Source: an uncultured Bacteroidales bacterium (GTDB taxonomy: Bacteria; Bacteroidota; Bacteroidia; Bacteroidales; FEN-979). Taken from it: a DNA stretch of 44,565 nucleotides. Below are positions 6,164 to 43,514 of this stretch, piece by piece. The stretch spans positions 1 to 44,565 of the forward strand of contig CAIRDP010000061.1 of NCBI GenBank assembly GCA_903877385.1. Reading direction: 5' to 3'. The number at the start of each line of letters is the position of its first letter. The stretch's first letter is position 1. The position numbers and the translations under genes were made by a program. The notes under the pieces are model-generated. The model saw nothing but the letters and a program-made list of their open reading frames with translations, had not been told where the DNA came from and made no database searches.

Positions 6164-6196
6164 TTTTATAGGTTTTAAGGTGAATAATATCCGATG

Positions 6197-6226
6197 CCTG
6201 GACCCGGAACAGAGCCCGAGTCCAGG
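6197..6226 (-). promoter_or_regulatory. Hairpin in the istA-istB gap
   Basis: CCTGGACCCGG (6197-6207) can pair with CCGAGTCCAGG (6216-6226), 11 bp with one mismatch and an 8-nt loop. It lies 34 nt before the istB start, so it could modulate the relative output of IstB. Confidence 0.5.
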
Positions 6227-6239
6227 TACCGGAGAGATT

Positions 6240-7802
6240 TTATCGGTAATAATTTTTACCACGGATATTATTATGCGGAGGTAATGGCTGATCATTGCCG
6301 GGTTCCGTCTCATCTGTGTTCCCGTCAAGGCCACGTTCAAGGATTGCCCGGATGGTCTGGTACCCGTAATCGCCATATTGGAGTGCACGGCGGCAGGCAT
6401 TGTTAAGACGCTCTTTTCCAACACGCGCAGCAAAACTCAACACGCCCTGGCACGAGCGGTAAGTCTGTTCCGGATGCTGGCGGGTATTCAGCAACTCAAT
6501 GATGTATTGCTTTGTTTCAGGGCCGATCTCTTCTGCTCGTTCGATAAACTTATTTGGATTCCAGTCGCTCATGTACCGGTGCTTAGAAGCCAGGTGTTCA
6601 ATGACCGTCGTATAGCCATAGGGTTGCCGGTTGCGGTTGTGTATGGCAATGCGTTCATAGCGATGATATACTTCAACAACGCTCTGGCTGTACAAAAGTG
6701 TTACCTTCTTGCCTATGTAGTGATACGGAACGCTGTAAAAATGTTTGTCTTCACTGAGGTTGACGTAATTGTTCTTCATGACCGTAACGATAAGGCGGTG
6801 TTTGAGTTCGTACTTGTGAGCGGCCAAAGGATGTAGCGTTTGACGCTCGGTTTCTTCAAACAACTGCCTGCGGCTGAACGGCCTGTTCTGCAACAACCGG
6901 TTGTTGTGTTCCTCCAGGGCTGCACCGATGGACTGGTTGATTAGTTCCAGGCTGGAATAGACTCGTTCCTTTACAGTGCCGTAAATCGTGCGATAGATGA
7001 TCTTTACAGCGCCTTCAACCAGTGCTTTGTACTTGGGCTTGTATGGCGCCGCGGGCAGCGCAGACATCGTGTAATGGCTTACAAAGTCACGGAATGCCTC
7101 GTTGAGGGTTGGCTCGTAACGGTTCCCCTTTATCACGGCTGACTTCAGATTGTCCGTGACAATGGCATTTGGAACACCTCCGAAGTAATACAGAGCATTC
7201 TCACAGGAACCGATGAAGTCTTCTTTCTTTTGACTATAACTGGCTTCTACATAGGTTAACTGGCTAGCACCAAGGATGGCAACAAAAACCTCAACAGGAA
7301 CCATCTCCCCGCTTTCAGGGTCAACGATATGCAGCTTTTGTCCAGCATAATCCACATACATCTTCTCCCCGGCCTTATGCTCCATATGCATTACCGGGTT
7401 GCGTACCTTCAGCCATTTGAGGTAATACCCCTTAAATTGTGACACACGGTAACCATCTGGATTAAGCGCGATGTATTGCTGCCACAGTTTTCCCTTGGTG
7501 TTTTCCCTGTGCTTCAGGGCTTTCTCCATCCCCGGGAAAAACGCTACTGCAGCGATATAACGGGGATCATTTTCGACATAATGGCGTGGAACCATGTCCA
7601 TGAAGAACTGCTCCAACTCCGTATCGCTCATCAGTTCAAGCTCCTGTGGGGACTTGTCCGAGGCCAGGAATAGCCTGATATATTTTTTAACACTGTTGCG
7701 GGGAAGATCTGTCCGATCCCCAATAGACTGCTTGCTTACACCTTCGGTGTATAGCCTGATAATGTTTCTCACCTTGCTCATAACAATTAGTTTATTTGAC
7801 AT
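6240..7802 (-). CDS. istA: IS21-family transposase IstA
   Basis: 520 residues, full length. An N-terminal helix-turn-helix (about residues 8-45, GVSKQSIGDRTDLPRNSVKK) is followed by an integrase-type RNase H core. The DDE triad can be assigned to D151 (YVDYAG), D217 (VTDNLK) and E263 (ALVEGAVK), followed by the C-terminal beta-barrel (YSVPYHYIGKKVTLLYSQ). It catalyses cut-and-join of the IS ends with IstB. The ATG at 7802 gives MSNKLIVMSKVRNIIRLY, the usual start. The right-end repeats lie 70-165 nt upstream, so the promoter probably overlaps transposase-binding sites. Confidence 0.93.
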   Translation of the reverse strand: MSNKLIVMSKVRNIIRLYTEGVSKQSIGDRTDLPRNSVKKYIRLFLASDKSPQELELMSDTELEQFFMDMVPRHYVENDPRYIAAVAFFPGMEKALKHRENTKGKLWQQYIALNPDGYRVSQFKGYYLKWLKVRNPVMHMEHKAGEKMYVDYAGQKLHIVDPESGEMVPVEVFVAILGASQLTYVEASYSQKKEDFIGSCENALYYFGGVPNAIVTDNLKSAVIKGNRYEPTLNEAFRDFVSHYTMSALPAAPYKPKYKALVEGAVKIIYRTIYGTVKERVYSSLELINQSIGAALEEHNNRLLQNRPFSRRQLFEETERQTLHPLAAHKYELKHRLIVTVMKNNYVNLSEDKHFYSVPYHYIGKKVTLLYSQSVVEVYHRYERIAIHNRNRQPYGYTTVIEHLASKHRYMSDWNPNKFIERAEEIGPETKQYIIELLNTRQHPEQTYRSCQGVLSFAARVGKERLNNACRRALQYGDYGYQTIRAILERGLDGNTDETEPGNDQPLPPHNNIRGKNYYR

Positions 7803-7968: not shown

Positions 7969-8000
7969 GAGACTGGTCAAAAGGGCTGGTTTATCCAGGT

Positions 8001-8275
8001 AGTACGTGATGAAGGTCGTGAAGAAGTACGTGACGGTAGTACGTGAAGAAGGTCGTGAGGAAGGTCGTGAAGAAGAACGTAACGGTAGTAAGTGAGGAAG
8101 GACGTGAAGAAGAACGTAACGGTAGTACGTAAAGAAGGACGTGAAGAAGTGCGGATTACAATTACGTTTTATCGTTACGAATTACCATCACGTTTTATCG
8201 TTACGATTTACCATCACGATTTACCCTTACGTATTATCGTCACGAATTACCATCACGATTTACCCTTATCAGTTT
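8001..8275. repeat. Family A repeat, copy A3 (longest, both arms)
   Basis: The left arm (8001-8150) consists of 12-13 nt units such as GGTCGTGAGGAA, GGTCGTGAAGAA and GAACGTAACGGT. The centre is GTGCGGATTACAATTACG. The right arm (8163-8275) consists of 13 nt units such as GTTACGATTTACC and ATCACGTTTTATC, which are the inverted complement of CGTGATGGTAA-type units. The arms can fold back imperfectly. The copy starts about 30 nt past the IS21 right end and runs into the 3' end of the DUF4143 ATPase gene. Confidence 0.85.
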
Positions 8276-9610: not shown

Positions 9611-9728
9611 CCCGTGAGGAAGGGCGTGACAGTAGGTCGTGAGGAAGAACGTGACAGTAGTACGTAATGAAGAGCGATTTACCGTCACGTTTTATCGTTA
9701 CGATTTACCGTCACGTTTTACCCTCATT
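9611..9728. repeat. Family A repeat, copy A4
   Basis: Left-arm units (CGTGAGGAAGGG, CGTGACAGTAGGT, CGTGAGGAAGAA) are followed by right-arm units (ATTTACCGTCACG, TTTTATCGTTACG, ATTTACCGTCACG). CGTGACAGTA can pair with TACCGTCACG with one mismatch. The right arm encodes the last codons (EGKT and stop) of the RhuM gene. Confidence 0.8.
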
Positions 9729-10610
9729 ATACGGGGTGTCGAGTTTCGTAATGAGTTCCCTTGGGTCGAGTTCGATTTTCGCAAAGGCAAACCACTTTTT
9801 GCCCAGGTCTTTTAATGAAGCGCCGATATGATAAACCTTTGCATGGTCAAGTATCAGAAACCTGTCGTGCGAGTTGGTAAATGTTTTAACCTCAACTTTT
9901 GGATATTGGGCATTAAATCGTTTCAAATCCAATTTTAATTGGTTTGTAACTGAAGCAGTATATATCGTGGCTGTAACTTCACTTTTTCTTTTCGACAACA
10001 AAGTCAGCACACTTTCATCAATATAATTGTCTACCAGTACAATAGATTTTGTAGCCGATTTGATTATATCCGATGCAAACTGGTAAGCATCGAATATTTG
10101 TCCCTCATAAAAAATACCTTCGGTGGGTAGCAAGTTTGTTTTTATTAGTAAGCCGAATTTTTGGTCGTGCTCCAAAAGTGTTTTATCATGTTGTTTTAAT
10201 TTATTCTCAATTTGCTCAAATTGCTGGTGAATAACGTATCCCTTGAGTAAATAAGTTTTCAAAACTTTATTAGCCCAAATACGAAACTGAGTTCCTTGAA
10301 TAGAATTGACACGATATCCGATAGAAATGATCATGTCCAAATTGGAATGGTCAGTATTGCGGTTTACGCTTCGATTTCCTTCGATTTGAACTGTTCGGAA
10401 TTTCCGAACAGTTGTTTCGGCTTCCAATTCTTTTGACTGATAAATTTGCTTAATATGTTCGCTTACATTTGCTTTACTTGTGGAAAAAAGGGTGACAATT
10501 TGAGCTTGTGTAAGCCAAATGGTTTCATCATCAATTCGCACTTCGAGATATGTTGATTTGTCATCTGGTTGATAGAAGATTATTTCACCATTTTCAATTG
10601 AGGCATTCAT
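9711..10610 (-). CDS. RhuM-family protein with PLD-like C-terminal domain
   Basis: 299 residues. Residues about 25-130 match the RhuM family: WLTQAQIVTLFSTSKANVSE (a helix-turn-helix), then DMIISIGYRVNSIQGTQFRI and LLKGYVIHQQ. A coiled linker (about 130-155) follows. Residues about 160-290 form a phospholipase-D-like fold (SIVLVDNYIDESVLTLL, then SHDRFLILD and YHIGASLKDLGKKWFAF). RhuM was named from a Salmonella pathogenicity island, but its biochemistry is unknown. In many genomes it occurs in accessory islands beside restriction or toxin genes. The last residues come from repeat A4, so the native C-terminus may have been replaced. Confidence 0.85.
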   Translation of the reverse strand: MNASIENGEIIFYQPDDKSTYLEVRIDDETIWLTQAQIVTLFSTSKANVSEHIKQIYQSKELEAETTVRKFRTVQIEGNRSVNRNTDHSNLDMIISIGYRVNSIQGTQFRIWANKVLKTYLLKGYVIHQQFEQIENKLKQHDKTLLEHDQKFGLLIKTNLLPTEGIFYEGQIFDAYQFASDIIKSATKSIVLVDNYIDESVLTLLSKRKSEVTATIYTASVTNQLKLDLKRFNAQYPKVEVKTFTNSHDRFLILDHAKVYHIGASLKDLGKKWFAFAKIELDPRELITKLDTPYNEGKT

Positions 10611-10651: not shown

Positions 10652-10860
10652 AAAGTGAAAAAGTGATATCCGTGAGGAGAGAACGTAAGGAAGATCGTGA
10701 GGAGAGAACGTAAGGAAGATCGTGAGGAAGAACGTGACGGTAGGACGTGAGGAAGAACGTGACGGAAGGTCGTGATGAAGAGCGTAATGAAGTTCGTGAA
10801 GAAGTGCGGATTATCATTACGTTTTACCCTCACGATTTTCTTCACGTTTTTCTTATCACT
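10652..10860. repeat. Family A repeat, copy A5
   Basis: Long left arm of CGTGAGGAGAGAACGTAAGG-type units, including an almost exact tandem duplication near 10671-10716. The centre GTGCGGATTATCATTACG is nearly identical to the centre of copy A3. A short right arm follows (TTTTACCCTCACG, ATTTTCTTCACG). It separates the divergent RhuM and receiver-domain genes, so any promoters there must lie in or beside the repeat. Confidence 0.85.
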
Positions 10861-14552: not shown

Positions 14553-16361
14553 ATGCAAAAACGCTGGGTCACGAAACCTCTGGGAGAGAAGGATAGCATC
14601 CGCAAAATGTCGGAATTACTGGGAATCGACCACTATCTCTCCGGCCTTCTGGTCCAAAGGGGCATCACGACTTTCGAAGACGCCAAAGCCTTTTTCAGGC
14701 CCGGCCTGAACCATCTCCACGACCCCTTCCTGATGAAGGATATGGACCTCGCCATCAACCGTATCGAAGAGGCCATGGAAAAGCAGGAAAAGGTGATGGT
14801 GTACGGCGATTACGATGTGGACGGAACTACCGCTGTGGCCCTGGTGTACAGCTTCCTCAAACGTTTCCACGAGCCGGCCGGTTATTATATCCCCGACCGC
14901 TATACCGAGGGTTACGGGGTTTCGTACAAGGGCATAGATTACGCGGCCGAAAACGGTTTTAAACTCATCATCGCCCTCGATTGCGGGATCAAGGCGGTTG
15001 AGAAGGTTCAGTACGCACTGGAAAAAGGAATTGATTTCATCATCTGCGACCACCACCGTCCGGGAGCTGAACTCCCCCCTGCATCGGCTGTTTTAGACCC
15101 CAAGCGGGCCGATTGTCCTTACCCTTATAAAGAGCTTTCGGGCTGTGGCATTGGGTTCAAGCTCATCCAGGCGATAGCCATGCGTAAAAATATAGAGTTC
15201 GAAAAACTTCATACCTACCTCGACCTGGTAGCGATCAGCATTGCTTCGGATATCGTTGATATTACGGGGGAAAACAGGGTGCTGGCTTACTTCGGACTTA
15301 AGCTCATCAATTCCTCGCCCCGGCCCGGGATAGAGGCGCTGCTGCATTATTCAGGGGTGCACGCGAAGAAAAATGATGCGGTATACAAGATACAGGATGC
15401 CCGTTCGGAACCCCTCAGCTCATCCCGCAACCCGCATCCTGCATCCCCAAACTGCTACGACAAAGAGCTCACTATCTCCGACCTGGTGTTTACCATAGGA
15501 CCCAGGATCAACGCTGCGGGCAGGATAGAGAGCGGGAATAATTCGGTGAAGCTGCTGATCGCCGAAAGCCTGGATGATGCACGCGCTACCGCCGAACAGA
15601 TCAACAATTACAATACCGAACGCAAGAACCTGGATGCCATTGCCACCCTACAGGCCATCGACATGATACAGAAGGATGAGAAGCTGCGCAACGCCAAGTC
15701 CACGGTGATCTTTCATCCCGACTGGCATAAGGGCGTTATAGGCATAGTGGCTTCCAGGCTTACCGAGACGTTTTACAGACCTACCATAGTGCTTACGTCT
15801 TCCAACGGACTAATTACGGGCTCGGCCCGCTCGGTCAAGGATTTTGATATTTACGAGGCAGTGGATGCCTGCAGCGGGCTGCTGGAACATTTCGGCGGAC
15901 ATAAATATGCTGCGGGGCTCTCGCTGAAACCCGAAAACCTTCTTGCTTTCCAGGAGAAGTTCGAAGCTATCGTAAGGGAAAAGCAGAAAGGGGCGGAGTT
16001 TGTCCCTGAACTTGAAATTGACGAGGTGCTCCCCCTGAGCGCGGTGAATTCCCGCTTTTACAACATCCTGAAGCAGTTTGCGCCCTTCGGTCCGGGTAAC
16101 ATGGCCCCCCTCTTCGAAACCGACGGGGTGGTGAATGCCGGCGGCTCCCGCCTCGTGGGCAAGAACCATATCCGCCTTACCGTGGTCCATCCCGAGATCT
16201 CCGGCGGCCCCTGCTCCGCTATCGCCTTCCAGCAGGGCGAACACTTCCACCTCATCGACAAAGGCATCCCCTTCGATATCTGCTACCACCTCGAGGAAAA
16301 CGAGTGGAACGGGCAGGTGTCGCTTCAGCTGAATGTAAGGGATATCCGCTTCGCGATGTAA
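14553..16361 (+). CDS. recJ: Single-stranded-DNA-specific exonuclease RecJ
   Basis: 602 residues. A 5'-3' ssDNA exonuclease of recombination and mismatch repair. DHH-family motifs: VYGDYDVDGTT (86-91 core), ALDCGI, ICDHHRPG (DHH 166-168) and GCGIGFKL. The DHHA1 part has GPRINAAGRIESG and FGGHKYAAGLSL, and an OB-like C-terminal domain follows. The start MQKRWVTKPL agrees with the family. Residues about 282-305 are an unusual linker containing SSRNPHPASP (290-299), encoded by a family B repeat unit inserted in frame just before the TISDLVFTIGPRIN strand. Length is otherwise normal for Bacteroidota RecJ, and the enzyme is likely functional. It is divergent from the DUF4143 ATPase gene. Confidence 0.95.
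   Translation: MQKRWVTKPLGEKDSIRKMSELLGIDHYLSGLLVQRGITTFEDAKAFFRPGLNHLHDPFLMKDMDLAINRIEEAMEKQEKVMVYGDYDVDGTTAVALVYSFLKRFHEPAGYYIPDRYTEGYGVSYKGIDYAAENGFKLIIALDCGIKAVEKVQYALEKGIDFIICDHHRPGAELPPASAVLDPKRADCPYPYKELSGCGIGFKLIQAIAMRKNIEFEKLHTYLDLVAISIASDIVDITGENRVLAYFGLKLINSSPRPGIEALLHYSGVHAKKNDAVYKIQDARSEPLSSSRNPHPASPNCYDKELTISDLVFTIGPRINAAGRIESGNNSVKLLIAESLDDARATAEQINNYNTERKNLDAIATLQAIDMIQKDEKLRNAKSTVIFHPDWHKGVIGIVASRLTETFYRPTIVLTSSNGLITGSARSVKDFDIYEAVDACSGLLEHFGGHKYAAGLSLKPENLLAFQEKFEAIVREKQKGAEFVPELEIDEVLPLSAVNSRFYNILKQFAPFGPGNMAPLFETDGVVNAGGSRLVGKNHIRLTVVHPEISGGPCSAIAFQQGEHFHLIDKGIPFDICYHLEENEWNGQVSLQLNVRDIRFAM
15420..15449 (+). repeat. Family B repeat units inside recJ
   Basis: TCATCCCGCAACCCGCATCC plus TGCATCCCC, the same CATCCCGCATCC-type units seen between genes, here read in frame as SSRNPHPASP. 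No hairpin core is present in this copy. Confidence 0.75.
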
Positions 16362-19643: not shown

Positions 19644-19746
19644 CGTGATGGTAATGCGTGAAGAAGTGCGTGAGGGTAATTCGTTATGGTAAGTCGATTT
19701 TTTTCACGTACTCCCATTACGAACTTCTTCACGAACTACCATCACG
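19644..19746. repeat. Family A repeat, copy A7 (long near-perfect hairpin)
   Basis: Outer arms CGTGATGGTA (19644-19653) and TACCATCACG (19737-19746) pair perfectly. After a 3-nt bulge on each side, CGTGAAGAAGT (19657-19667) pairs perfectly with ACTTCTTCACG (19723-19733). Inside, TCGTTATGG can pair with CCATTACGA with one mismatch. The hairpin spans 103 nt between the 3' end of the C69 gene and the promoter of the coiled-coil gene. Confidence 0.9.
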
Positions 19747-19754
19747 TTCTTCCA

Positions 19755-21425: not shown

Positions 21426-21457
21426 ATGTGTTGGGTTTGTTTACAATTGACGAATTA

Positions 21458-21492
21458 CGATCCCGCATCCTGCATCCTGCATCCGAAATCCG
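21458..21492. repeat. Family B repeat units without hairpin core
   Basis: GATCCCGCATCCTGCATCC and further TGCATCC units, lying in the untranslated leader predicted for the C69 gene. Confidence 0.65.
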
Positions 21493-23482: not shown

Positions 23483-23541
23483 ATCCTGCATCCTGCATCG
23501 GCGCGCAGCGCTCATCGGCAACGCAAAGCGTTGCCCATCCC
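23483..23541. repeat. Family B repeat with two hairpin cores
   Basis: ATCCTGCATCCTGCATC units, then core GCGC-GCA-GCGC, then GGCAACGC-AAA-GCGTTGCC (23517-23535, perfect 8-bp stem), then CCATCCC. It lies between nitronate monooxygenase and the next gene. Confidence 0.85.
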
Positions 23542-24323: not shown

Positions 24324-24412
24324 CATAGTCGCGCAGCGCCTCATCCCGCATAGTCGCGAAGCGCCTCATCAGCGCGAAGCGCTACCATCAACGCGAAGCG
24401 TTGCCCATCCTC
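24324..24412. repeat. Family B repeat cluster with four hairpin cores
   Basis: Four cores in 90 nt: CGC-GCA-GCG, CGC-GAA-GCG, AGCGC-GAA-GCGCT (24371-24383) and AACGC-GAA-GCGTT (24390-24402), joined by CTCATCCCGCATAG-type units. The outer base pairs differ from core to core but stay complementary. It fills the whole gap between two convergent genes and may act as a terminator for both. Confidence 0.88.
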
Positions 24413-27467: not shown

Positions 27468-27532
27468 TCATCCCGCATCGGCGCGAAGCACCCATCGGCA
27501 CGAAGTGCCTAATCCGCGCGAAGCGCCTCATT
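27468..27532. repeat. Family B repeat with three hairpin cores
   Basis: Cores GGCGC-GAA-GCACC (one mismatch), GGCAC-GAA-GTGCC (perfect, a stem different from the others) and GCGC-GAA-GCGC, with ATCATCCCGCATC. It fills the gap between two convergent genes and overlaps the mqnC stop codon. Confidence 0.88.
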
Positions 27533-28628
27533 CCCAGCTGAAATCCTGGTTCCTCAGCTGTGGCACGAAGCCTGCTTCGCGAATCGCCTTCTGCATCCCT
27601 TCTGCATCCATGGAATTATGCGCACCTGCCGCCGAAACCACGTTTTCCTCTATCATGATACTGCCGAAATCATTGGCCCCGGCATGCAGGCACAACTGCC
27701 CCGTTTCCTTGCCCACCGTGAGCCACGATGCCTGTATGTTCGGGATGTTCGGAAGCATGATACGGCTGATGGCGATCATGCGGATATATTCTTCGGAAGT
27801 GACATGATTGCTGATCCCCGATTTCTTCAGCAGCACCGTTCCTTCATCCTGGAACGGCCAGGGGATAAATGAAAGGAAGCCCTTATGCCCGGTCGGTTTG
27901 CACGACTGCAGTTCCCGTATGCTCACCATATGTTCCAGCCTCTCTTCCAGGGTCTCGATATGCCCGAACATCATGGTTGCCGATGTGGTGAGATCCATGA
28001 TATGCGCTACCTTCATGACTTCCAGCCATTCAACGGCAGTGCATTTGACGGGTGAGATCTCATGCCTTACCCTGTCGACCAGGATCTCGGCCCCGGCTCC
28101 CGGCAGACTGTCCATCCCCGAGGCAACAAGCTGTTCAAGAACTTCACGGTACCCCAGCTTTTCCATATTTGCCAGGTGGACGACCTCCGGAGGACCCAGG
28201 GCATGCAGCCTGAGAGTGGGGTAGAGCTTTTTTAAACCCGAGAACAGATTGGTATAGAAATCAATCCCGAGATGGGGATGCATCCCGCCCTGCAGCAAAA
28301 GCTGGTTTCCTCCCAGTTTGTGCATTTCGTCTATCTTCTCAATATATTCCTCCAGGCTGGTGATGTAACAGGCTTCGTTGCTTACAGGTTTGTAAAAGTT
28401 GCAGAATTTGCATCCCGAAACGCAGGCGTTCGTGATGTTGACATTGCGGTCGATGATCCATGTTACCCTTCCGTGGGGATGATGTTTTTTCCTGAGTTCA
28501 TTTGCCGTAAACATGAGATCAGCCAGAGGAAGCTCCCTGAAAAGGGATCTTCCTTCGTCAATGCTGAGGAATCCGAGGGAAAGGGCTTTTTGGATTAATG
28601 ATGTCATCGGGGTTTTTATCACATTCAA
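27528..28628 (-). CDS. mqnC: Cyclic dehypoxanthinyl futalosine synthase (MqnC)
   Basis: 366 residues (359 if the second Met at 28607 is the start). Radical SAM enzyme of the futalosine route to menaquinone. It cyclises dehypoxanthinyl futalosine. The [4Fe-4S] motif is C69-x3-C73-x2-C76 (NACVSGCKFC). Family-specific segments are present: LLLQGGMHPHLGIDFYTNLF, SLPGAGAEILVDRVRHEISP, TSATMMFGHIET, FIPWPFQDEGT, NIPNIQASW and NDFGSIMIEENVVSAAG. No other menaquinone gene is adjacent, so the pathway is scattered in this genome. The stop lies at the edge of a family B repeat. Confidence 0.92.
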   Translation of the reverse strand: MNVIKTPMTSLIQKALSLGFLSIDEGRSLFRELPLADLMFTANELRKKHHPHGRVTWIIDRNVNITNACVSGCKFCNFYKPVSNEACYITSLEEYIEKIDEMHKLGGNQLLLQGGMHPHLGIDFYTNLFSGLKKLYPTLRLHALGPPEVVHLANMEKLGYREVLEQLVASGMDSLPGAGAEILVDRVRHEISPVKCTAVEWLEVMKVAHIMDLTTSATMMFGHIETLEERLEHMVSIRELQSCKPTGHKGFLSFIPWPFQDEGTVLLKKSGISNHVTSEEYIRMIAISRIMLPNIPNIQASWLTVGKETGQLCLHAGANDFGSIMIEENVVSAAGAHNSMDAEGMQKAIREAGFVPQLRNQDFSWE

Positions 28629-31476: not shown

Positions 31477-31526
31477 AAAGGTACGATAAAAAAGAGATTT
31501 GTATCCTGCCCGGTTTTATGCGCTTT

Positions 31527-31580
31527 CATCGGCAACGCGCAGCGTTGCTTCATCCCGCATCGCAACGCGAAGCGTTGCAC
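31527..31580. repeat. Family B repeat with two hairpin cores
   Basis: GGCAACGC-GCA-GCGTTGC (31531-31548) and GCAACGC-GAA-GCGTTGC (31562-31578, perfect), joined by TTCATCCCGCATC. It lies between the divergent protease and pepA genes, just upstream of the pepA promoter box. Confidence 0.88.
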
Positions 31581-33125: not shown

Positions 33126-33186
33126 ACGAAGGATGAAGGATGCAGGATCATCCCGCATCGGCGCGAAGCGCCATTATCCCGCATCT
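33126..33186. repeat. Family B repeat with one perfect core
   Basis: GGATGCAGGATCATCCCGC, then GGCGC-GAA-GCGCC (33160-33172), then TTATCCCGCATC. It lies between pepA and pdxA. Confidence 0.85.
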
Positions 33187-34285: not shown

Positions 34286-36904
34286 ATGTATACAGTATCT
34301 GAAATAGCTGGGATCGTTGGCGGGAAATTATTCCCGGGAGACTGTGCCGATACGGAGGTGAAGGATATCCTCATCGACAGCCGCCGCCTGATCCGGCCCG
34401 AAGGGACGATGTTTGTAGCTGTTGTGACCCCGAGGAACGACGGCCACCAGTATATTGATGAGCTGCTGGCGAAAGGGGTGAAGGTGTTTCTCGCATCCCG
34501 CATCGGCGCGCAGCGCCCTCATCCCGCATCGGCATTGCCAAGCGTTGCCCATCCCGCATCCTATATCCTTGTTCCCGACACACTGTCTGCATTGCAGAAG
34601 CTTGCAGCTTACCACCGCCGGCAGTTTGACATCCCCGTAATCGGGATCACCGGAAGTAACGGCAAGACGATAGTCAAGGAATGGCTGTACCAGTTGCTGA
34701 GTCCCGATTTTAACATCATCCGCAGTCCGAAGTCATACAACTCCCAGATAGGAGTTCCTCTTTCGGTATGGAAGATGGAGAAGGAGAACCAGCTTGCGAT
34801 TTTCGAAGCAGGGATCTCCCAGGCGGGGGAGATGGAAAAACTGGAAGAGATCATCAAACCCGAATACGGCATCATCACCAACATCGGGCATGCGCATGAT
34901 GTAGGATTTGCCAGCACTATCCAGAAGACCGACGAAAAACTCAGGCTTTTCAGGCATAGCAAAGTCCTGGTGTATTGTTCCGACCACGATCTGATCGACA
35001 GCTGTGTGAAATTCTGCGATCCCACCCGTACCTGTACAGCATTTTCGTGGAGCCGCAGCAAGCCCGCGGATCTTTTTGTGAAGGACGTGAGGAAGGGCGT
35101 GATGGAGGACGTGAGGAAGAACGTGACAACGGTCACGGTCGTCACGAAAATCGACGAGGAGCTAAGTTTCAGCATTCCTTTTACCGATGATGCTTCCATT
35201 GAAAATGCCATCCATTGTTTTGCGTTGATTGTTGCGATGGACGAAGTATCATCCCGCATCCCGCATCCCGCATCGGCGCTCAGCGCCATCATCCCCCGCT
35301 TTGCATCGCTTGCCCCCATCGCAATGCGCCTGGAGCTGAAGGACGCCATAAACCGCTGTTCCATTATCAACGATTCTTACAACAACGACATCAACTCCCT
35401 GAGCATCGCCCTGGACTTCCTCATCCAGCAGAACCAGCATAAGAAAAAAACGGTGATCCTTTCCGACATTCTCCAGAGCGGGAGGGATAAAAATGATTTA
35501 TACAATGAGATCGCCGCTTTGCTCGAGAGCAAGGGAATAGGCAAACTCATCGGGATTGGCCGGGATATGAATAAATATTCCGATAAGTTCAGGATGCAGA
35601 AGAACTTCTATTATACCACCGACGACTTCCTGATGCATTACCCGGTTTCGTCCTTCCTCGACGAATCCATACTCCTGAAAGGCGCGAGGATCTTCGAGTT
35701 TGAAAGAATAAGCAATGCGCTTCAACAGAAAGCGCATGAAACCGTGCTCGAGATCAACCTCGATGCGATGGTCCACAACCTTAACCATTACCGCTCGCTT
35801 CTGAAGCCGGGAGTGAAGCTCATGGCCATGGTCAAGGCCTTTTCGTACGGAAGCGGGAGTTTTGAAATAGCCAACCTCCTCCAGTTCCACAGGGTCGATT
35901 ATCTTGCCGTGGCTTATGCCGATGAAGGCGTTGAACTCAGGAAGTCGGGTGTACACCTACCTGTCATGGTGATGAGCCCCGAAGAGCAAAGCCTGGATAC
36001 CCTTTTAAAATACAACCTCGAACCCGAGATCTACAACCTGCATATCCTCTCACTTCTTGAAGAAGCTGTAAAGCGCAACCAGACCTCCAACCAGGAAGCC
36101 GTTCGCGTACACATCAAGCTTGATACGGGTATGCACAGGCTGGGGTTCCAGGAAGATGAGATTGATGAGTTGATCACGAGATTAATGGAGATGGAAGATG
36201 CATCGGCAACGCAAAGCGCTGCCCATCCCGCATCAGCAGCACGCAGTGCTGCCTCATCCCGCATCTCTGTCGTTTCCGTCTTCTCCCATCTTGCTGCCAG
36301 TGAAGATGAGTCGGAAGATGAATTCACACGGGAGCAGATCCGGCGTTTCGATGCTATGAGTTCGCGCATCACTGCAGCCCTTGGTTATCCCGTTTTAAGG
36401 CATATCCTGAATTCGGCCGGGATCAGCCGTTTTGCCGGGGCCCAGTTCGACATGGTACGCCTGGGGATAGGGCTTTACGGGCTGGGGGCCAACGAAGGAG
36501 AACAGCAAAGAATGAGAAATGTAAGCTCACTACGCACCGTCGTCATCCAGCTTAAAAAAATTATAAAAGGGGAAACAATAGGTTACGGCCGCAAAGGCAG
36601 GGCAAAGAAAAACAGCCTGCTCGCCGTGGTCCCCGTAGGTTACGCCGACGGGCTGAACCGCAGGCTGGGAAACGGGGCGGGCAAAGTTTATATTGGAGGC
36701 AAAGCCGCTCCTTTTATAGGCAATGTGTGCATGGACCTTTGCATGATCGATGTGACGGGACTGGAGGTTAAAGAAGGCGACGAGGTGGTCATCTTCGACA
36801 ATGCCCATCCCGTAACGGATCTTGCAAAAGCTACCAGAACAATCCCATACGAAGTGATGACGGGGATTTCGGGAAGAGTTAAACGAATCTATTACCACGA
36901 ATGA
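34286..36904 (+). CDS. murF-alr: Bifunctional MurF / alanine racemase with four repeat-derived insertions
   Basis: 872 residues. The fusion is characteristic of Bacteroidota. The N-terminal part adds D-Ala-D-Ala to the UDP-MurNAc-tripeptide (ATP loop GITGSNGKT at 120-128; INDSYNNDINSL further on). The C-terminal part (from about 485) is the PLP racemase (K517 in MAMVKAFSYGSG; VPVGYADG; IGNVCMDLCMIDVT). Four segments do not belong to the family and are encoded by intergenic repeat sequence: residues 71-92, 267-288, 322-336 and 639-660. All lie between secondary-structure elements and keep the frame. Both catalytic cores look intact. Length exceeds the usual 800-odd residues by roughly the inserted amount. 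Confidence 0.93.
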   Translation: MYTVSEIAGIVGGKLFPGDCADTEVKDILIDSRRLIRPEGTMFVAVVTPRNDGHQYIDELLAKGVKVFLASRIGAQRPHPASALPSVAHPASYILVPDTLSALQKLAAYHRRQFDIPVIGITGSNGKTIVKEWLYQLLSPDFNIIRSPKSYNSQIGVPLSVWKMEKENQLAIFEAGISQAGEMEKLEEIIKPEYGIITNIGHAHDVGFASTIQKTDEKLRLFRHSKVLVYCSDHDLIDSCVKFCDPTRTCTAFSWSRSKPADLFVKDVRKGVMEDVRKNVTTVTVVTKIDEELSFSIPFTDDASIENAIHCFALIVAMDEVSSRIPHPASALSAIIPRFASLAPIAMRLELKDAINRCSIINDSYNNDINSLSIALDFLIQQNQHKKKTVILSDILQSGRDKNDLYNEIAALLESKGIGKLIGIGRDMNKYSDKFRMQKNFYYTTDDFLMHYPVSSFLDESILLKGARIFEFERISNALQQKAHETVLEINLDAMVHNLNHYRSLLKPGVKLMAMVKAFSYGSGSFEIANLLQFHRVDYLAVAYADEGVELRKSGVHLPVMVMSPEEQSLDTLLKYNLEPEIYNLHILSLLEEAVKRNQTSNQEAVRVHIKLDTGMHRLGFQEDEIDELITRLMEMEDASATQSAAHPASAARSAASSRISVVSVFSHLAASEDESEDEFTREQIRRFDAMSSRITAALGYPVLRHILNSAGISRFAGAQFDMVRLGIGLYGLGANEGEQQRMRNVSSLRTVVIQLKKIIKGETIGYGRKGRAKKNSLLAVVPVGYADGLNRRLGNGAGKVYIGGKAAPFIGNVCMDLCMIDVTGLEVKEGDEVVIFDNAHPVTDLAKATRTIPYEVMTGISGRVKRIYYHE
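34493..34562 (+). repeat. Family B repeat inside murF (insertion 1)
   Basis: GCATCCCGCATC, then core GGCGC-GCA-GCGCC (34505-34517), then CATCCCGCATC, a decayed second core (34531-34549), then CATCCCGCATCC. Translated as SRIGAQRPHPASALPSVAHP and AS (residues 71-92). Two full units are inserted, a multiple of three. Confidence 0.9.
35078..35152 (+). repeat. Family A repeat inside murF (copy A8, insertion 2)
   Basis: GTGAAGGACGTGAGGAAGGG and similar units, followed by CGTGACAACGGTCACG, a short fold-back, and a right-arm GTCACG. Translated as DVRKGVMEDVRKNVTTVTVV (residues 267-286). Confidence 0.85.
35249..35293 (+). repeat. Family B repeat inside murF (insertion 3)
   Basis: TCATCCCGCATCCCGCATCC, then core GGCGC-TCA-GCGCC (35275-35287), then ATCATCCC. 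Translated as SSRIPHPASALSAII (residues 322-336). Confidence 0.88.
36199..36263 (+). repeat. Family B repeat inside the alr part (insertion 4)
   Basis: Core GGCAACGC-AAA-GCGCTGCC (one mismatch), CATCCCGCATC-like unit, core GCAGCAC-GCA-GTGCTGC (36236-36252, perfect 7 bp, a stem not seen elsewhere), then TCATCCCGCATC. Translated as ASATQSAAHPASAARSAASS and RI (residues 639-660). Confidence 0.9.
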
Positions 36905-38384: not shown

Positions 38385-39839
38385 ATGATAGTTGCAATAT
38401 CCAGTCTGATTACCCTTGCGGGTTTATGGTGTGTACTGCGCAAATACTTCAGTTCAGGCGTAACCATCCTCACCCTGCTGTTATTGATCCTGGGCACCAA
38501 CTTTTATTTGATGCTGGTGTACAGCGGGGCAATCCAGGCCAGTGTACTGCTGGCCCTTATGGTGCTGGTGGTGTGGATGACCCGGAGCTGGTATGAAAAA
38601 CCCCGCTGGGCCGAAGCCGTCATCGCCGGGCTTGCCATGGCCTGCCTGGTTTTTATCAAGCCTGCAGGTTTTGCTTCAATTCTCGTGTTCTTCTTCTGGG
38701 ACGCATACAATAAGGAGACCTTTAAGAAAAAGTGGAGGCTCTTTAAAGAGAATATAATGATGGTGATCCTGGTCTTCAGCCTGTTTTTAACAGGGCTGAT
38801 TTTGAGAGCGATCTTTCCCCATGCGTTTGAAAATACCATGTTCAGCGATTATATGGAACACAAGCGGGTACTTTACCTGCTGGCTCCCTTTCTATGGGAG
38901 GTGATGTTCTCGATCAGGAACGGCTGGCTTATTTATACCCCCCTGGTACTTTTCTCCATCCCGGGCTTTTATATACTTGCCATCAGGAATAAACGGATAT
39001 TTTATGCCGTTTTCCTGTTCTCACTCAGCTTCGTTTTAATGCTTGCTTCCTCCCCCGATGTAGTCGCACCCAATAATTTTTCACAGTCAAGGATGACCGA
39101 AATATTTGCTGTGCTTTTCATCCCCCTGGGCTATTTCATCGCCTGGGTGATGGAAGGCAGGTGGCTTAGGAAAACTGCATTCCTTCTGGTCCTTGCCGCC
39201 CTTATAGGGCTCAACCTATTCCAGACCTGGCAGTACAGGCACAAGATCCTCAATCCCTGGTTCACTTCCCCCGGGTATTACACTGCCGTCTTTCTTAAAA
39301 CCCATGTCAGCCCCGAAACCCGTATGCTGCAGTCATTCAGTAATATGGATATGTCGTCCTACCTCGCCAACGAGAATGACTTCAACATAAAAACGATTGT
39401 CGAAACAGGTTTCGAAAATAATCCGGGTGCCTTTGGAGGACACTTTCAAACGAAAATTTTCCATGCGGGGCAGGCTGCGCTAAGGCTGGACGACGACCTG
39501 AGGTTTACGCCTTCGTTGAGCATGCCCGTTTCAAAGCTCCCGGCCAACGAGCTGATGGGTATAAGGCTGTCGGCCTGGGTATATTCCGAAACCGATTTCA
39601 GTGAGAATACGGCAAATATGATCATAACCCTGAGCCATCACGGGGGACTCTACCACTATAAGGCCCTCGCAATAAGCACCCTGCCCCTGGAAAAAGGCAA
39701 ATGGAACAAGGTGCAGCTCGATTATGTCATATCCCGGCAGCTTGACCCCTCCGACGAACTCATCCCTTACATCTGGTATACAGGGAAGACGGTTTTGTAT
39801 GTTGATGACCTCAAGGTGGAACTGTTTGAGCAAAAGTAG
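38385..39839 (+). CDS. Polytopic membrane protein, paralogue 1, lacking the N-terminal module
   Basis: 484 residues. About 8 transmembrane helices (residues 1-290) are followed by a soluble C-terminal domain (about 345-484) ending IWYTGKTVLYVDDLKVE. It aligns with the two following genes from their third helix onward (AMACLVFIKPAGFASI against AVLLRPTNVMAI; SIRNGWLIYTP against SPFNGLFPYHP). The first ~130 residues present in the paralogues, including the WxDxAxYYVYxPATFxY motif, are absent here. The CW.YG.SFG.R motif is also absent. The start follows the FAD gene stop by only 12 nt, so the missing part was probably deleted. It may still be expressed as a shortened protein. Confidence 0.75.
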   Translation: MIVAISSLITLAGLWCVLRKYFSSGVTILTLLLLILGTNFYLMLVYSGAIQASVLLALMVLVVWMTRSWYEKPRWAEAVIAGLAMACLVFIKPAGFASILVFFFWDAYNKETFKKKWRLFKENIMMVILVFSLFLTGLILRAIFPHAFENTMFSDYMEHKRVLYLLAPFLWEVMFSIRNGWLIYTPLVLFSIPGFYILAIRNKRIFYAVFLFSLSFVLMLASSPDVVAPNNFSQSRMTEIFAVLFIPLGYFIAWVMEGRWLRKTAFLLVLAALIGLNLFQTWQYRHKILNPWFTSPGYYTAVFLKTHVSPETRMLQSFSNMDMSSYLANENDFNIKTIVETGFENNPGAFGGHFQTKIFHAGQAALRLDDDLRFTPSLSMPVSKLPANELMGIRLSAWVYSETDFSENTANMIITLSHHGGLYHYKALAISTLPLEKGKWNKVQLDYVISRQLDPSDELIPYIWYTGKTVLYVDDLKVELFEQK

Positions 39840-39886
39840 CTGGCTGGGGATGGAGGAATAAAAAGAGAAATTATAAAAGCAGAGAT

Positions 39887-41743
39887 TTGGACAATAAAGT
39901 AAACAGCGAAGAAAACGCTCACCAGAAGCAGGGCGTCGAAACGGATACCGGCCGGCCATCATCCCGCATCCTGCATCCTTCTTCCCTCGCAAGCAGGAAG
40001 CGCTCACTGCGCGATGGCCTTATATTCCTTGTGATTTTCGGAATTGGCATTTTCATTACCCTGAGTTGGAACATGCAAAACGGGAAAGTAAGGAGCCCGG
40101 GAAAGATCTGGTCCGATGCGGCACACTATTACGTTTACATGCCGGCTACCTTTATTTATGGCTGGAATGCCTTCTGTTTCCCGTATAAGATAGAGAAGAG
40201 ATTCGAGGGCTTCCTTTTGAATGATAAAACCGGCAAGGTTGAAATAAAAACCACCTGCGGCGAGGCTTTACTACTTACCCCGTTTTTTCTGGCAGCGCAT
40301 GCATCAGCATACCTGTTTAAATTGCCCATGGACGGGTTCTCATCGTTTTACCAGGTGTTCATGCTTATCGGTTGTATATTCTATTTTACCCTTGGGCTGT
40401 TCTTTCTGAAGAAATTCCTCGACCGATATTTTAAGCATGCGATCTCGCTAACGGCAGTCCTTATCATTGCCCTGGCCACACAGATGTATTTCTACGCTTA
40501 CGACCAGGCCCTGATGTCGCATACCTATTCGTTTTTCCTGTTCAGCGCATTCTTTTACCTTCTCAAGCTTTACCTCGACGGGGGTAAGAAATCCTATACC
40601 CTGTTCTCGCTTCTCAGCCTCAGCCTGGCAATGGCTGTGCTGCTCAGGCCCACAAACGTTATGGCCATATTGTGGTTTGCTTTCCTTGACCTCAAATCAT
40701 CGAAGGAACTCTGGCAACGCCTGCTCTTCTTCCTCAACCCCAAACGCAGCCTGCTTTATATCCTCATACAGTTCATCGTTCTGGTCCCCCAGTTCATCTA
40801 CTGGAAATACCTTTCGGGACATTATATTTATTTCTCCTACCCCGGCGAGGTCTTTTTCTGGGGAAACCCCATGCTGCTCCAGGTCTGGTTCTCGCCTTTC
40901 AACGGATTGTTTCCCTACCATCCCATCTTTTTTCTTTTCCTGGCAGGGATGATCATTATGATCGTACGCCACAAGCTGAACGGGATATTTTCACTCTTGT
41001 TTTTCCTGCTGGCTTCCTATGTTTTCTCCTGCTGGCACTGCTGGTATTACGGGGGAAGCTTCGGGTTCCGGCCCCTGGCCGAATTTACAGTGTTCATGGC
41101 CCTCCCCCTGGCTTATCTCATCCTGGATATCGTCCAGTGGAAAAACCTCTTCCTGAAATCGGTCATGGTTGTGACATTTTTCCTGCTCATATACTTTAAC
41201 CTGATGCAGTTCTACCACTACCAGGTTTTTACCGGCGGCATGTGGTCCTGGGATGATTACTTTATCAAGCTCAGGGAGTACGAGGTGGTCGATTATCCTC
41301 AGAAAACCTATGAATGGAAAACCGATTTCGCAAACACTTTCCAGTATGAACCGGTAATCCTCACCTTTCAGCACCCCCGTTCAAGGGTACTGGCGACATA
41401 CTGCAGCAAGGACATTGCCGATAACGTGCATTACAGGCGTAAATTATCCAAAATCCTCGACCACCCTGTGAGCAGGTTAAGCCTTTCGGTTTGGGTTTAC
41501 CCTGTGGAACATGATTCAACCCATGCCCTATGGGTTTGCCGCATCCAGAACTCCGATTCCCTGGTCTTCTTTAAAGGCATCTCCTTTGATGAATTCGTAA
41601 ATAAACGTGATATTTACAGCGAGGTTCACGCCTCCTTTGAAGTACCTGAATGGGTGGACCCCAACTCGGATATAGAGTTTTTCATCTGGAATCCCAAGGG
41701 CCGTGAATTCTATTTTGACGATATGTCCATAAAATTCGAATGA
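39887..41743 (+). CDS. Polytopic membrane protein, paralogue 2 (GT39-like fold suspected)
   Basis: 618 residues from a TTG at 39887. No ATG fits. About 10 transmembrane helices (about 50-430) resemble the membrane body of dolichyl-phosphate-sugar-dependent glycosyltransferases. The luminal motif WSDAAHYYVYMPATFIY (about 85) has an Asp in a position suited to catalysis. CWYYGGSFGFRPLAEF and SPFNGLFPYHP are other conserved marks. A soluble C-terminal domain (about 495-618), beta-rich and jelly-roll-like, ends FIWNPKGREFYFDDMSIKF. The N-terminal residues PSSRILHPSS come from a family B repeat. Acceptor and donor are unknown. Confidence 0.75.
   Translation: MDNKVNSEENAHQKQGVETDTGRPSSRILHPSSLASRKRSLRDGLIFLVIFGIGIFITLSWNMQNGKVRSPGKIWSDAAHYYVYMPATFIYGWNAFCFPYKIEKRFEGFLLNDKTGKVEIKTTCGEALLLTPFFLAAHASAYLFKLPMDGFSSFYQVFMLIGCIFYFTLGLFFLKKFLDRYFKHAISLTAVLIIALATQMYFYAYDQALMSHTYSFFLFSAFFYLLKLYLDGGKKSYTLFSLLSLSLAMAVLLRPTNVMAILWFAFLDLKSSKELWQRLLFFLNPKRSLLYILIQFIVLVPQFIYWKYLSGHYIYFSYPGEVFFWGNPMLLQVWFSPFNGLFPYHPIFFLFLAGMIIMIVRHKLNGIFSLLFFLLASYVFSCWHCWYYGGSFGFRPLAEFTVFMALPLAYLILDIVQWKNLFLKSVMVVTFFLLIYFNLMQFYHYQVFTGGMWSWDDYFIKLREYEVVDYPQKTYEWKTDFANTFQYEPVILTFQHPRSRVLATYCSKDIADNVHYRRKLSKILDHPVSRLSLSVWVYPVEHDSTHALWVCRIQNSDSLVFFKGISFDEFVNKRDIYSEVHASFEVPEWVDPNSDIEFFIWNPKGREFYFDDMSIKFE
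39957..39985 (+). repeat. Family B repeat units at the 5' end of paralogue 2
   Basis: CATCATCCCGCATCCTGCATCC, read as PSSRILHP. Hairpin core absent. Confidence 0.65.
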
Positions 41744-41744
41744 T

Positions 41745-43514
41745 ATGCGAGCAAGAAAAATGTTTCCTGCATGGTTTGAAGTTGTTTTTTTTACCCTTAT
41801 CCTGGTCGTTTCTCTTTCGTTGACATACCGTTTCCATAAAAGATTCGGATATTTTACCTGGAAAAGTGAGATTTGGGCCGACCGAGCAGGGTATTATGTA
41901 TTCCTGCCGGCTACATTCTACTATCACTGGGACCTGAAAAAAGCCCCTCAGGGTATGGATGAAAAAACAGGGTATGGATTCGTATATGATACTAAGCACA
42001 ATGTGATCAGTACAAAATATTCCTGCGGACTGGCTTTTCCCCTGGCCCCGTTTTTTATTTCGGTTCATTATATTGCCAAAATCTTCGGTATTCCCCGGGA
42101 TGACGGCTTCGCCCCGGTTTTCCACCGCATGGTCAATGTGGCAGCTGTGATCTACCTCGTTTTGGGATTATTCTTCCTGTTCAGGTTCCTCAGGCATTAC
42201 TTCAGTGAATTGGCTTCTTATCTTGGAATTTTCTTTTTGTTCGCGGGGACCAACCTGTTCTATTATGCCATTGCCGACACCCTCATGGCGCATGTTTACA
42301 ATTTCTTTTTGGTGGCGCTTTATCTTTTTTCACTGAAGAAATACCTCGAAAATCCCGCAAAATACCGGTATTTCATCTTCGCCTGCATTGCCCTTGCCCT
42401 GGTAGTGCTTATCCGCCCTACTTCCCTTCTGCTGATCATACTGTTCTTTTTACTGGATGTGAGGAGCCTGGATGAGCTGAAAGCAAGGCTGGCTGTGATG
42501 TTCAGGGCAAAACACCTGCCGGTGCTGGTTCTGATCCTGCTCATAGGATATATTCCCCAGCTGCTGTACAATCATTACGTAAGCGGGCAGTATATCCGTT
42601 ACCTGTATGACGACAGCTTCGCGAACCTCTTCGCACCCAGGTTACTTGAAGTGTGGTTCTCGACCATGAACGGACTGTTTATCTATACTCCCCTCATGAT
42701 ACTGTTTATTGCGGGGATGGTCATGATGGTAAGGAAAAAGGCAGCCAACGCCTGGATCAGCCTTATTCTTTTTCTCGTTTACTCCTATGTGTTTGCCTCA
42801 TGGACCTGCTGGTATTTCGGCTGTTCCTTTGGGCAGAGATCATTCATTGACCTGTTCCCTGTTTTTGCAATCCCTTTTACTTTCCTGATCGAAAACTCAA
42901 TCGGAGGAAAACGCTGGCTCAGGACAGGCATTATCGCTTTTTTCCTGCTGTTCTTTTCCTGGTATAATGTCAGGCTTTCGCGTGCCCATGAAGAATGCTT
43001 TTTCGGATCGACCTGGGACTGGAACCGGTTCGGGCAACTTCTGAATAAAGCGAAGATCCTGCCCTTCAAACCCGGCTTTGCTTATATGAATGATTACGAG
43101 AATGCAGCCATCTGCAACGGGGGTGAAACAACTTCACTCATCTCCAGGTCGGGCAACCACAGCCTGGTGTTCAATCCCAACCATGAGTTCAACGGTTATT
43201 TCATGGAATACCCGGCAAATATGGTAAGGGATTCGGTAATGAAAAGACTTAAGATCAAACTGTTTCTTTTTAAAACCTCAGGTACACCCACCGGGGCATT
43301 GATAGTTTGCAGCGCCGAGAAAGACGGGAAAATGCTTTTCTGGTCCTCAAGGCCTGTTGATGTTCCCATGGCCAGGACCAGGCAATGGTATGCAGTGCCT
43401 GTTAATTTTGACATCCCCAAAGATCTCGATCCCTGGGCCGAAATGAAAGTGTATATATGGAACAAGGAGAAGATCACATTTTATATCGATGACTTTGAAA
43501 TCAATGCCGAATAA
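41745..43514 (+). CDS. Polytopic membrane protein, paralogue 3 (GT39-like fold suspected)
   Basis: 589 residues. The stop of paralogue 2 and this ATG are separated by one base (TGATATG), so translation is coupled. It has about 10 transmembrane helices with the motif WADRAGYYVFLPATFYY near residue 45, then IRPTSLLLI, STMNGLFIYTP and CWYFGCSFGQRSFIDL. The soluble C-terminal domain (about 465-589) ends YIWNKEKITFYIDDFEI. These are the same landmarks as in paralogue 2, with overall moderate identity. No repeat insertion is seen. It likely acts at the inner membrane with the C-terminal domain in the periplasm, possibly binding the growing glycan. Confidence 0.78.
   Translation: MRARKMFPAWFEVVFFTLILVVSLSLTYRFHKRFGYFTWKSEIWADRAGYYVFLPATFYYHWDLKKAPQGMDEKTGYGFVYDTKHNVISTKYSCGLAFPLAPFFISVHYIAKIFGIPRDDGFAPVFHRMVNVAAVIYLVLGLFFLFRFLRHYFSELASYLGIFFLFAGTNLFYYAIADTLMAHVYNFFLVALYLFSLKKYLENPAKYRYFIFACIALALVVLIRPTSLLLIILFFLLDVRSLDELKARLAVMFRAKHLPVLVLILLIGYIPQLLYNHYVSGQYIRYLYDDSFANLFAPRLLEVWFSTMNGLFIYTPLMILFIAGMVMMVRKKAANAWISLILFLVYSYVFASWTCWYFGCSFGQRSFIDLFPVFAIPFTFLIENSIGGKRWLRTGIIAFFLLFFSWYNVRLSRAHEECFFGSTWDWNRFGQLLNKAKILPFKPGFAYMNDYENAAICNGGETTSLISRSGNHSLVFNPNHEFNGYFMEYPANMVRDSVMKRLKIKLFLFKTSGTPTGALIVCSAEKDGKMLFWSSRPVDVPMARTRQWYAVPVNFDIPKDLDPWAEMKVYIWNKEKITFYIDDFEINAE

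Follow-up and report, generated by a model that had tools for sequence, protein, structure and literature searches.

Dispersed lineage-specific repeats lie in frame in loops of the MurF-Alr enzyme of uncultured Bacteroidales

The DNA analyzed here (the window) is a stretch of 44,565 nucleotides, positions 1 to 44,565 of contig CAIRDP010000061.1 (assembly GCA_903877385.1), from an uncultured Bacteroidales bacterium of the lineage FEN-979. Its forward strand carries at 34286–36904 an intact 872-residue fusion of MurF and Alr, as judged from Pfam, NCBIfam and core substitution rates; both enzymes are generally regarded as essential. Pfam recognizes Mur_ligase_M, Ala_racemase_N and Ala_racemase_C, with Mur_ligase_C slightly below its cut-off, and the NCBIfam model NF008897 scores 1119 bits, matching residues 1–872 to model positions 2–822 of 822. 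Compared with six congeners, the core of the gene has nonsynonymous divergence (dN) of 0.10–0.13 and a high synonymous divergence (dS) of 1.2–1.7, giving dN/dS of about 0.07–0.09. The core is therefore under purifying selection. Embedded in it are four stretches written in repeat sequence, and these are the subject of this analysis.

An initial annotation, made from the letters alone, assigned residues 71–92, 322–336 and 639–660 to one repeat family (B) and residues 267–288 to a second (A); the coordinates and residues are correct. All four sites read on the forward strand. Site B1 (34493–34561; SRIGAQRPHPASALPSVAHPAS) is built of CATCCCG-type repeats with two mini-hairpins, one perfect and one imperfect. 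Site A (35080–35149; DVRKGVMEDVRKNVTTVTVVTK) consists of 12-nucleotide (nt) family A units and the inverted repeat CGTGAC-AACG-GTCACG. Site B2 (35249–35298; SSRIPHPASALSAII) combines CATCCCG heptamers with the mini-hairpin GGCGC-TCA-GCGCC, and site B3 (36199–36265; ASATQSAAHPASAARSAASSRI) has two mini-hairpins, the first imperfect, with CATCCCGCATC between and after them. From the sequence we expect all four stretches to be translated.

Family B had been described as hairpin units. Hairpins are indeed present, but the family is mainly a degenerate tandem heptamer array, (CATCCYG)n, in which mini-hairpins of 13–19 nt are embedded. These include GGCGC-GAA-GCGCC, AGCGC-GAA-GCGCT, GGCAC-GAA-GTGCC, GGCAACGC-AAA-GCGTTGCC and GGCAGCAC-GAA-GTGCTGCC. 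Their arms vary among copies and are often fully complementary; some are imperfect, including two in murF-alr. Family A is built from a tandemly repeated unit of 12 or 13 nt (GAAGNNCGTGAN and variants); its arrays elsewhere in the window are long and partly inverted.

Both families recur through the window, mostly between open reading frames (ORFs), as the initial annotation had held. On the forward strand, family B forms an intergenic heptamer array at 21441–21483, a second at 23489–23541 that holds the perfect GGCAACGC-AAA-GCGTTGCC hairpin, and mini-hairpins between two genes at 24342–24410 and again at 27469–27540. Further intergenic mini-hairpins lie at 31515–31575, and a unit at 33149–33185 stands directly upstream of the gene that precedes murF-alr. 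Family A has a large forward-strand array at 7998–8272, in which 12/13-nt units are followed by reverse-type units, and others at 9613–9730 and 10665–10852. At 19644–19753 (strand unspecified), an inverted family A array has 41-nt arms that are 80% complementary.

To place the four sites in context, we used an alignment of 30 MurF-Alr homologues (30 loci kept from 41 genomes), comprising 21 family members and nine order-level outgroups, with seven rows from the genus. All four proved to be genuine length-variable sites. The nine outgroups uniformly have minimal loops, with 10 residues at B2, 22 in the site A segment, 6–7 at B3 and 13–17 at B1; the corresponding lengths in this genome (G000) are 20, 29, 24 and 23. 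B2 has 10 residues in all outgroups and in 8 of the 21 family members, and 12 to 52 in the other 13. B3 has 6–7 residues in every one of the 23 non-genus rows and at least 22 in four of the seven genus rows. The site A segment spans 24 to 33 residues in six of the seven genus rows and 22–23 in all others, and the B1 loop is variable across the family. A fifth variable site, close to the C-terminus, has extra length in the four g3 genomes and in G012. The reading frame is open in 30 of 30 sequences, in line with the earlier description of in-frame, stop-free copies between core elements.

An AlphaFold2 model of the protein (mean predicted local distance difference test score, pLDDT, 85.7; predicted template modeling score 0.49) has four segments with pLDDT below 50. 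Three of them, 76–87, 326–329 and 650–657, fall within B1, B2 and B3, which thus lie in low-confidence loops; the fourth, 522–524, is unrelated to the repeats. Site A is modeled as a longer β-hairpin with strands 263–273 and 278–287. The inserts would be expected to lie at the surface. The initial annotation spoke of four insertions, and this needs qualification. Relative to minimal loops, the net gain is about 6 to 11 residues at B1, 7 at A, 10 at B2 and 17 at B3, less than the insert sizes of 22, 22, 15 and 22 residues because part of the loop sequence gave way to the repeats. Site A is no clean insertion: it extends a pre-existing β-hairpin by about 7 residues. In the congener G005 this site is also written in family A and is 12 nt longer.

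We counted repeat patterns across 41 genomes, namely this genome (4.3 Mb) with the other seven of its genus and 33 outside it, scoring overlapping matches on both strands and including copies in the gene. The heptamer-type pattern CATCCCGCATC, with 8 copies in murF-alr and 12 on that strand of the entire window, occurs 105 times in this genome, 302 times in G003, 6–34 times in the six other congeners and at most 7 times in each of the 33 non-genus genomes. The reversed pattern gives 0 here and 0 or 1 across genomes. A strict family A pattern has 10 matches in this genome, one of them in murF-alr, against a control of 0; it is found in all eight genus genomes and in none of the other 33.

A search by regular expression of a 486-kb sample of the genome (the window plus 23 fetched stretches) gave 38 family A and B clusters. 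ATG-initiated ORFs with 120 or more residues cover 89% of this sample, and 25 clusters lie outside them and 13 inside, in 10 ORFs. The ATG rule places outside ORFs the cluster of a TTG-started ORF at 39887 in the window. Four of the 13 in-ORF clusters are in murF-alr, where about 0.2 would be expected at random in 2.6 kb, an excess that is no unbiased test because the gene was chosen after the repeats had been seen. Some of the 13 could represent native sequence or sit at the ends of ORFs, such as those at the C-terminus of L126:5528-8707, at the N-terminus of L126:19174-19998 and in an M24 peptidase on L128. Strict tandem arrays in 12 sampled genomes occur at lag 7 (24 arrays), lag 14 (25) and lag 8 (16) and hardly at others; shuffled sequence of this genome has none at any lag. 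Thirteen of the 24 lag-7 arrays are inside stop-to-stop ORFs of at least 150 residues, which cover 84–96%. Heptamers are thus in excess outside coding DNA by both the cluster and the lag-7 counts.

The same loops are filled differently in relatives. All six aligned congeners differ from the window at the repeat sites. The MurF-Alr proteins of G016 and G009 carry VTRHASP- or VTRHTSR-type arrays, and the pattern under these VTRH-type inserts, GTCACSCGTCACSCGTCAC (CGTCACS), occurs 465 times in G016, 43 times in G009 and at most 10 times in the rest of the 41 genomes. The protein of G018 carries WAVGSWQLAVGS; the pattern GGCAGTKGGCAGTKGGCAGT (GGCAGTK) has 110 matches in G018, 95, 23 and 19 in three congeners and at most 4 elsewhere. 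G006 carries SREQGAG, and GGGAGCRGGGAGCRGGGAGC (GAGCRGG) has 64 matches in G006, 15 in G007 and 0 in the other 39; the RecJ loop of G006 reads the same heptamer on the opposite strand as SPLPAPG. For five of six counted patterns, the repeat in the gene is common in the carrier genome and rare or absent outside the carrier's genus. The case named at the outset as counting against the initial reading, relatives that have the window's residues at these sites but no intergenic copies, was not encountered: their residues differ and mostly come from repeats abundant in their own genomes, less clearly so for TTCGTCATTCGTCATTCGTC. Several of these relatives are metagenome-assembled genomes (MAGs) from various named projects, and two carry Lake Pavin names.

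A longer element provides the clearest sign of movement. An approximately 61-nt sequence, GCATTTCACACAAGCCGC...GCGGCGGTGTGAAGATGC, is common to the seven congeners: its first 18 bases, with up to two mismatches, match 118 times in these genomes, never in G000 and at most once elsewhere. Of three copies folded, two form a single long hairpin and one a weaker hairpin, and the inner part exists in at least two versions, each able to pair. MurF-Alr genes of five genomes contain seven copies in two reading frames, two of the copies being divergent, with four mismatches in the first 18 bases. In G004 the element stands in one frame at B1 and in the other at B3. Use of two reading frames means that it is the DNA that spreads, and not a peptide. 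Two weak matches (L009 and L026, with 4 and 5 mismatches) lie in core sequence and were discarded as chance. The suggestion that the repeats may be mobile elements is therefore well supported for the hairpin of the sister species; that support does not extend to a copying mechanism for families A and B.

Two unrelated families in one gene had seemed unusual. Both families are present, but murF-alr turns out to be one case of a pattern that reaches across much of the family and into other housekeeping genes. In the window, CATCCYG-type heptamers are in frame in recJ (15421–15447, forward strand; SRNPHPASPN). RecJ carries in-frame repeats in the congeners too, with one loop filled differently among them; this loop is shorter in all nine order-level outgroups aligned, about 27 residues in one of them compared with 36 in G000. 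Elsewhere in this genome, in-frame repeats occur in DNA polymerase I (PolA), Lnt, HolB and a MutY-like protein. In PolA and Lnt, G000 and G018 have different repeats in matching inter-domain linkers. The lnt gene of G000 (L125:14650-16287, minus strand) contains a heptamer array back to back in both orientations, forming a long imperfect inverted repeat within the ORF. Heptamers were also found in MiaA and an FAD oxidoreductase (G003), PepA (G016), PolA and Lnt (G018) and an amino acid permease (G004). RecJ, PolA and Lnt were compared with homologues, and the other in-frame cases are known from G000 or single relatives alone. CATCCYG heptamers at 39942–39986 (forward strand) fall near the N-terminus of the TTG-started ORF at 39887, which has no Pfam match, and are in frame only if that start is right.

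Taken together, these results make it likely that the four stretches are copies of the dispersed intergenic repeats of this genome, copied into or grown within pre-existing variable loops of MurF-Alr and translated there. On the best reading, the repeats are lineage-specific and apparently non-autonomous, and survive within genes only if they keep the frame, contain no stop and fall in loops that tolerate them. Heptamer arrays would lengthen and shorten by slippage, which PMC4679880 reports as a proposal of earlier work. Template switching during replication, a process able to form and repair a perfect hairpin at a single stroke (PMC8794818), would create the mini-hairpin arms and keep them complementary; arms that vary and still pair fit such a process. 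New loci may be seeded by a copying process that draws on the common repeats of the genome. Selection would then purge all but harmless insertions, so that a few tolerant loops recur as hot spots, and no benefit to the enzyme is necessary for this explanation.

Several observations weigh against this account. Neither slippage nor template switching alone explains transfer to new loci, and for families A and B the comparisons are between species, so that insertion was not witnessed. Among the six counted patterns, TTCGTCATTCGTCATTCGTC has 21 matches in G016 but just 6, two of which are in the gene, in the genome that carries it, G022. Reversed controls are not always empty: reversed GTCACSCGTCACSCGTCAC gives 15, 11, 5 and 3 matches in four g5 genomes, reversed GGGAGCRGGGAGCRGGGAGC gives 21, 33, 9 and 1 in four g5 genomes, and reversed GGCAGTKGGCAGTKGGCAGT gives 100 in G016. 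Apparently, the reversed pattern in these cases spells the private heptamer of another genome. The counts of CATCCCGCATC, the 61-nt element, a strict hairpin and TTCGTCATTCGTCATTCGTC have 1–9 stray control matches, and lag 8 is almost as frequent as lag 7 among the strict arrays. A 10-mer test of inserts against genome samples, ten of the eleven just 19–59 kb long, ranked the carrier's own genome first in 5 of 11 cases, third for G000 and last for G021; whole-genome pattern counts supersede it.

A wider version of the copying account is possible, though we hold it only tentatively. A Bacteroidales family may harbor private repeats that are continually replaced, both heptamer arrays and mini-hairpins with GAA loops. 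These would copy themselves through the genome by way of single strands or template switching, and fixed loops of essential enzymes would serve as safe harbors on which unrelated repeats converge. If so, such loops would give a steady supply of new protein sequence.

One alternative sees the mini-hairpins, and possibly the arrays too, as non-autonomous transposable elements that a single-strand HUH nuclease mobilizes in trans, in the way suggested for REP/REPIN sequences and RAYT. Each of the eight genus genomes does have one Y1_Tnp match, syntenic between the same two neighbors (L175:7848-8192, minus strand; also on L176, L177, L178, L179, L136, L180 and L181). The encoded proteins have an intact DHIH motif and a YILSQE-type motif (YIMSQ in G002) and resemble TnpAY1 subclass 1.2, a low-copy group found mostly in Cyanobacteria and Bacteroidetes in the account of PMC6006769. 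The protein scores under the NCBIfam cut-offs for transposases (IS200, 50.5 of 55 bits; REP-associated, 26.8 of 80 bits). In the stretches fetched from all eight genomes, no family A or D repeat and, by regular expression, no hairpin lies around the gene, and the nearest heptamer, in three of the eight, is about 3 kb away. G002 has the gene and a strict hairpin count of zero. Conversely, four genomes lack a Y1_Tnp match: G011, G021 and G024, which are rich in GGCAGTK arrays, and G019, which has a repeat-filled MurF-Alr loop. We therefore set the gene aside as mover of all the repeats: with arrays in genomes that have no match and no repeats flanking the gene, it is not necessary for the heptamers.

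The sequence 5′ of the hairpins bears on the same idea. In the 486-kb sample, CATC directly precedes perfect hairpins (stem at least 5, loop 3 nt) 32 times, whereas the mean per tetramer is 7.3. Of the 32, 19 have the loop GAA, and 23 were judged by eye to be of family B type. Perfect hairpins with a 3-nt loop number 176 against 129 in a simple shuffle, and because this general excess is weak we used only the CATC-flanked class. CATC is no proof of a foot signal, however, because per 10,000 occurrences it precedes hairpins 58 times, and ACAA (52; 20 cases) and TGGG (49; 17 cases) do so at similar rates. CATC is itself part of the family B heptamer. On balance, movement by an HUH nuclease appears unlikely.

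The repeats might instead have arisen at the sites themselves, with slippage enlarging chance seeds in tolerant loops and the intergenic copies playing no part. The slippage-prone 7-nt and 8-nt units that dominate the strict arrays would suit this origin, as would loops that tolerate length change. However, the units in the loops are mostly the common units of their own genome, and the 61-nt hairpin, no simple repeat, occurs at several sites in two frames. We regard birth in place as quite improbable.

Selection might act on the inserts, for instance if they serve as linkers that tune the enzyme or as contingency loci that switch an essential gene through slips of 7 nt, but this seems highly improbable. 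Although inserts recur at the same sites in many relatives, their sequence, length and frame are unconserved, and 8 of the 21 family members have none at B2. A switch is further at odds with the frame being open in all 30 sequences, and switching off an essential gene would be harmful.

Finally, an artefact of assembly or binning, a caveat raised at the outset, is very unlikely and scarcely credible: although several relatives are MAGs, repeats can break assemblies and the RecJ array of G006 sits at two contig ends, the same loops vary, with different sequences, unique flanks and an open frame in 30 of 30, across MAGs of several named projects, and core dN/dS is low.

Other features of the window and the genome deserve mention. 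Between 5294 and 7980, inverted copies of GGGGTGGTCAATTTGGATCGGCAG-like repeats lie at both ends of a segment with minus-strand ORFs at 5408–6433 and 6240–7802, which we take to resemble an istB/istA pair of the IS21 type. Two adjoining minus-strand ORFs at 3106–3954 read in translation as parts of one nucleotide-sugar dehydrogenase, possibly a broken gene. At 38385–43514 there are three successive large membrane-protein-like ORFs, of which those at 39887 and 41745 have repeats D15 and D18 in common and resemble tandem paralogues. Another hairpin repeat in the genome consists of TTGGGCGAAGCCCAA, TTCGGCGCAGCCGAA or TTTGGCAAAGCCAAA followed by ATGAGCACACAA, or near variants (L186:12218-12305, L187:12710 and L116:7453).

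Several known systems share features with these repeats, which belong to the broad class of heptameric repeats as described in PMC4692102. Like the heptamers of Xanthomonas, Nostoc and Beggiatoaceae, they have 7-nt units and are dispersed, lineage-patchy and mostly extragenic; those heptamers are presented as non-coding and under-represented in coding DNA (PMC4692102, PMC4679880), whereas here they recur in frame in housekeeping genes. Unlike plain heptameric repeats, family B carries hairpins. By general description this recalls the SDR of Nostoc punctiforme, 21–27-nt hairpins embedded in heptamer arrays; we know of no in-frame filling of essential proteins by SDR. With REP/REPIN systems and their RAYT transposases, as outlined in PMC3116915 and PMC6006769, the repeats have short palindromes in common, and each genus genome has a single Y1_Tnp gene, but here the gene has no repeats beside it, stems vary and repeats lie inside genes. 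The template-switch hairpins of PMC8794818, studied there on RNA genes, would explain perfect, co-varying arms without selection. The coding palindromes in mitochondria of PMC6649704 appear from that account to be of a different kind and were set aside.

A literature search covering titles and abstract openings, with few subscription journals, found no paper that reports heptamer arrays in frame in proteins of Bacteroidales. For Rickettsia and for some miniature inverted-repeat transposable elements (MITEs) of enterobacteria and Neisseria, in-frame repeats are documented in the account of PMC2229807. Rickettsia palindromic elements, described there as 105–146 bp long with terminal inverted repeats of about 12 bp, lie between genes and in frame within conserved protein genes, where they are apparently tolerated. 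As the initial annotation suggested, the Bacteroidales repeats resemble them in effect. They differ from them in size and anatomy: they are 7-nt and 12-nt tandem units, 13–19-nt hairpins and, in the sister species, a hairpin of about 61 nt. The comparison, made by description, is also between phyla, and here different repeats occupy one site in different relatives. Correia/NEMIS, ERIC and Yersinia RU-2 MITEs are similarly short non-autonomous repeats with open frames that become fused in frame to genes, but they are single elements of about 100–200 bp rather than tandem heptamers, and the MITE account of PMC2229807 does not mention different families filling a single loop repeatedly. Within the literature searched, what looks new is that repeats private to different lineages converge on matching loops of shared housekeeping enzymes across a single family of bacteria. 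Several unrelated repeat types in uncultured Bacteroidales, placed in matching loops of housekeeping enzymes in related lineages, amount to a natural experiment that shows where a protein can accept foreign sequence in its loops. Set beside the known systems, they also bear on the spread of small repeats in the absence of a known transposase and on the conversion of non-coding DNA into protein.

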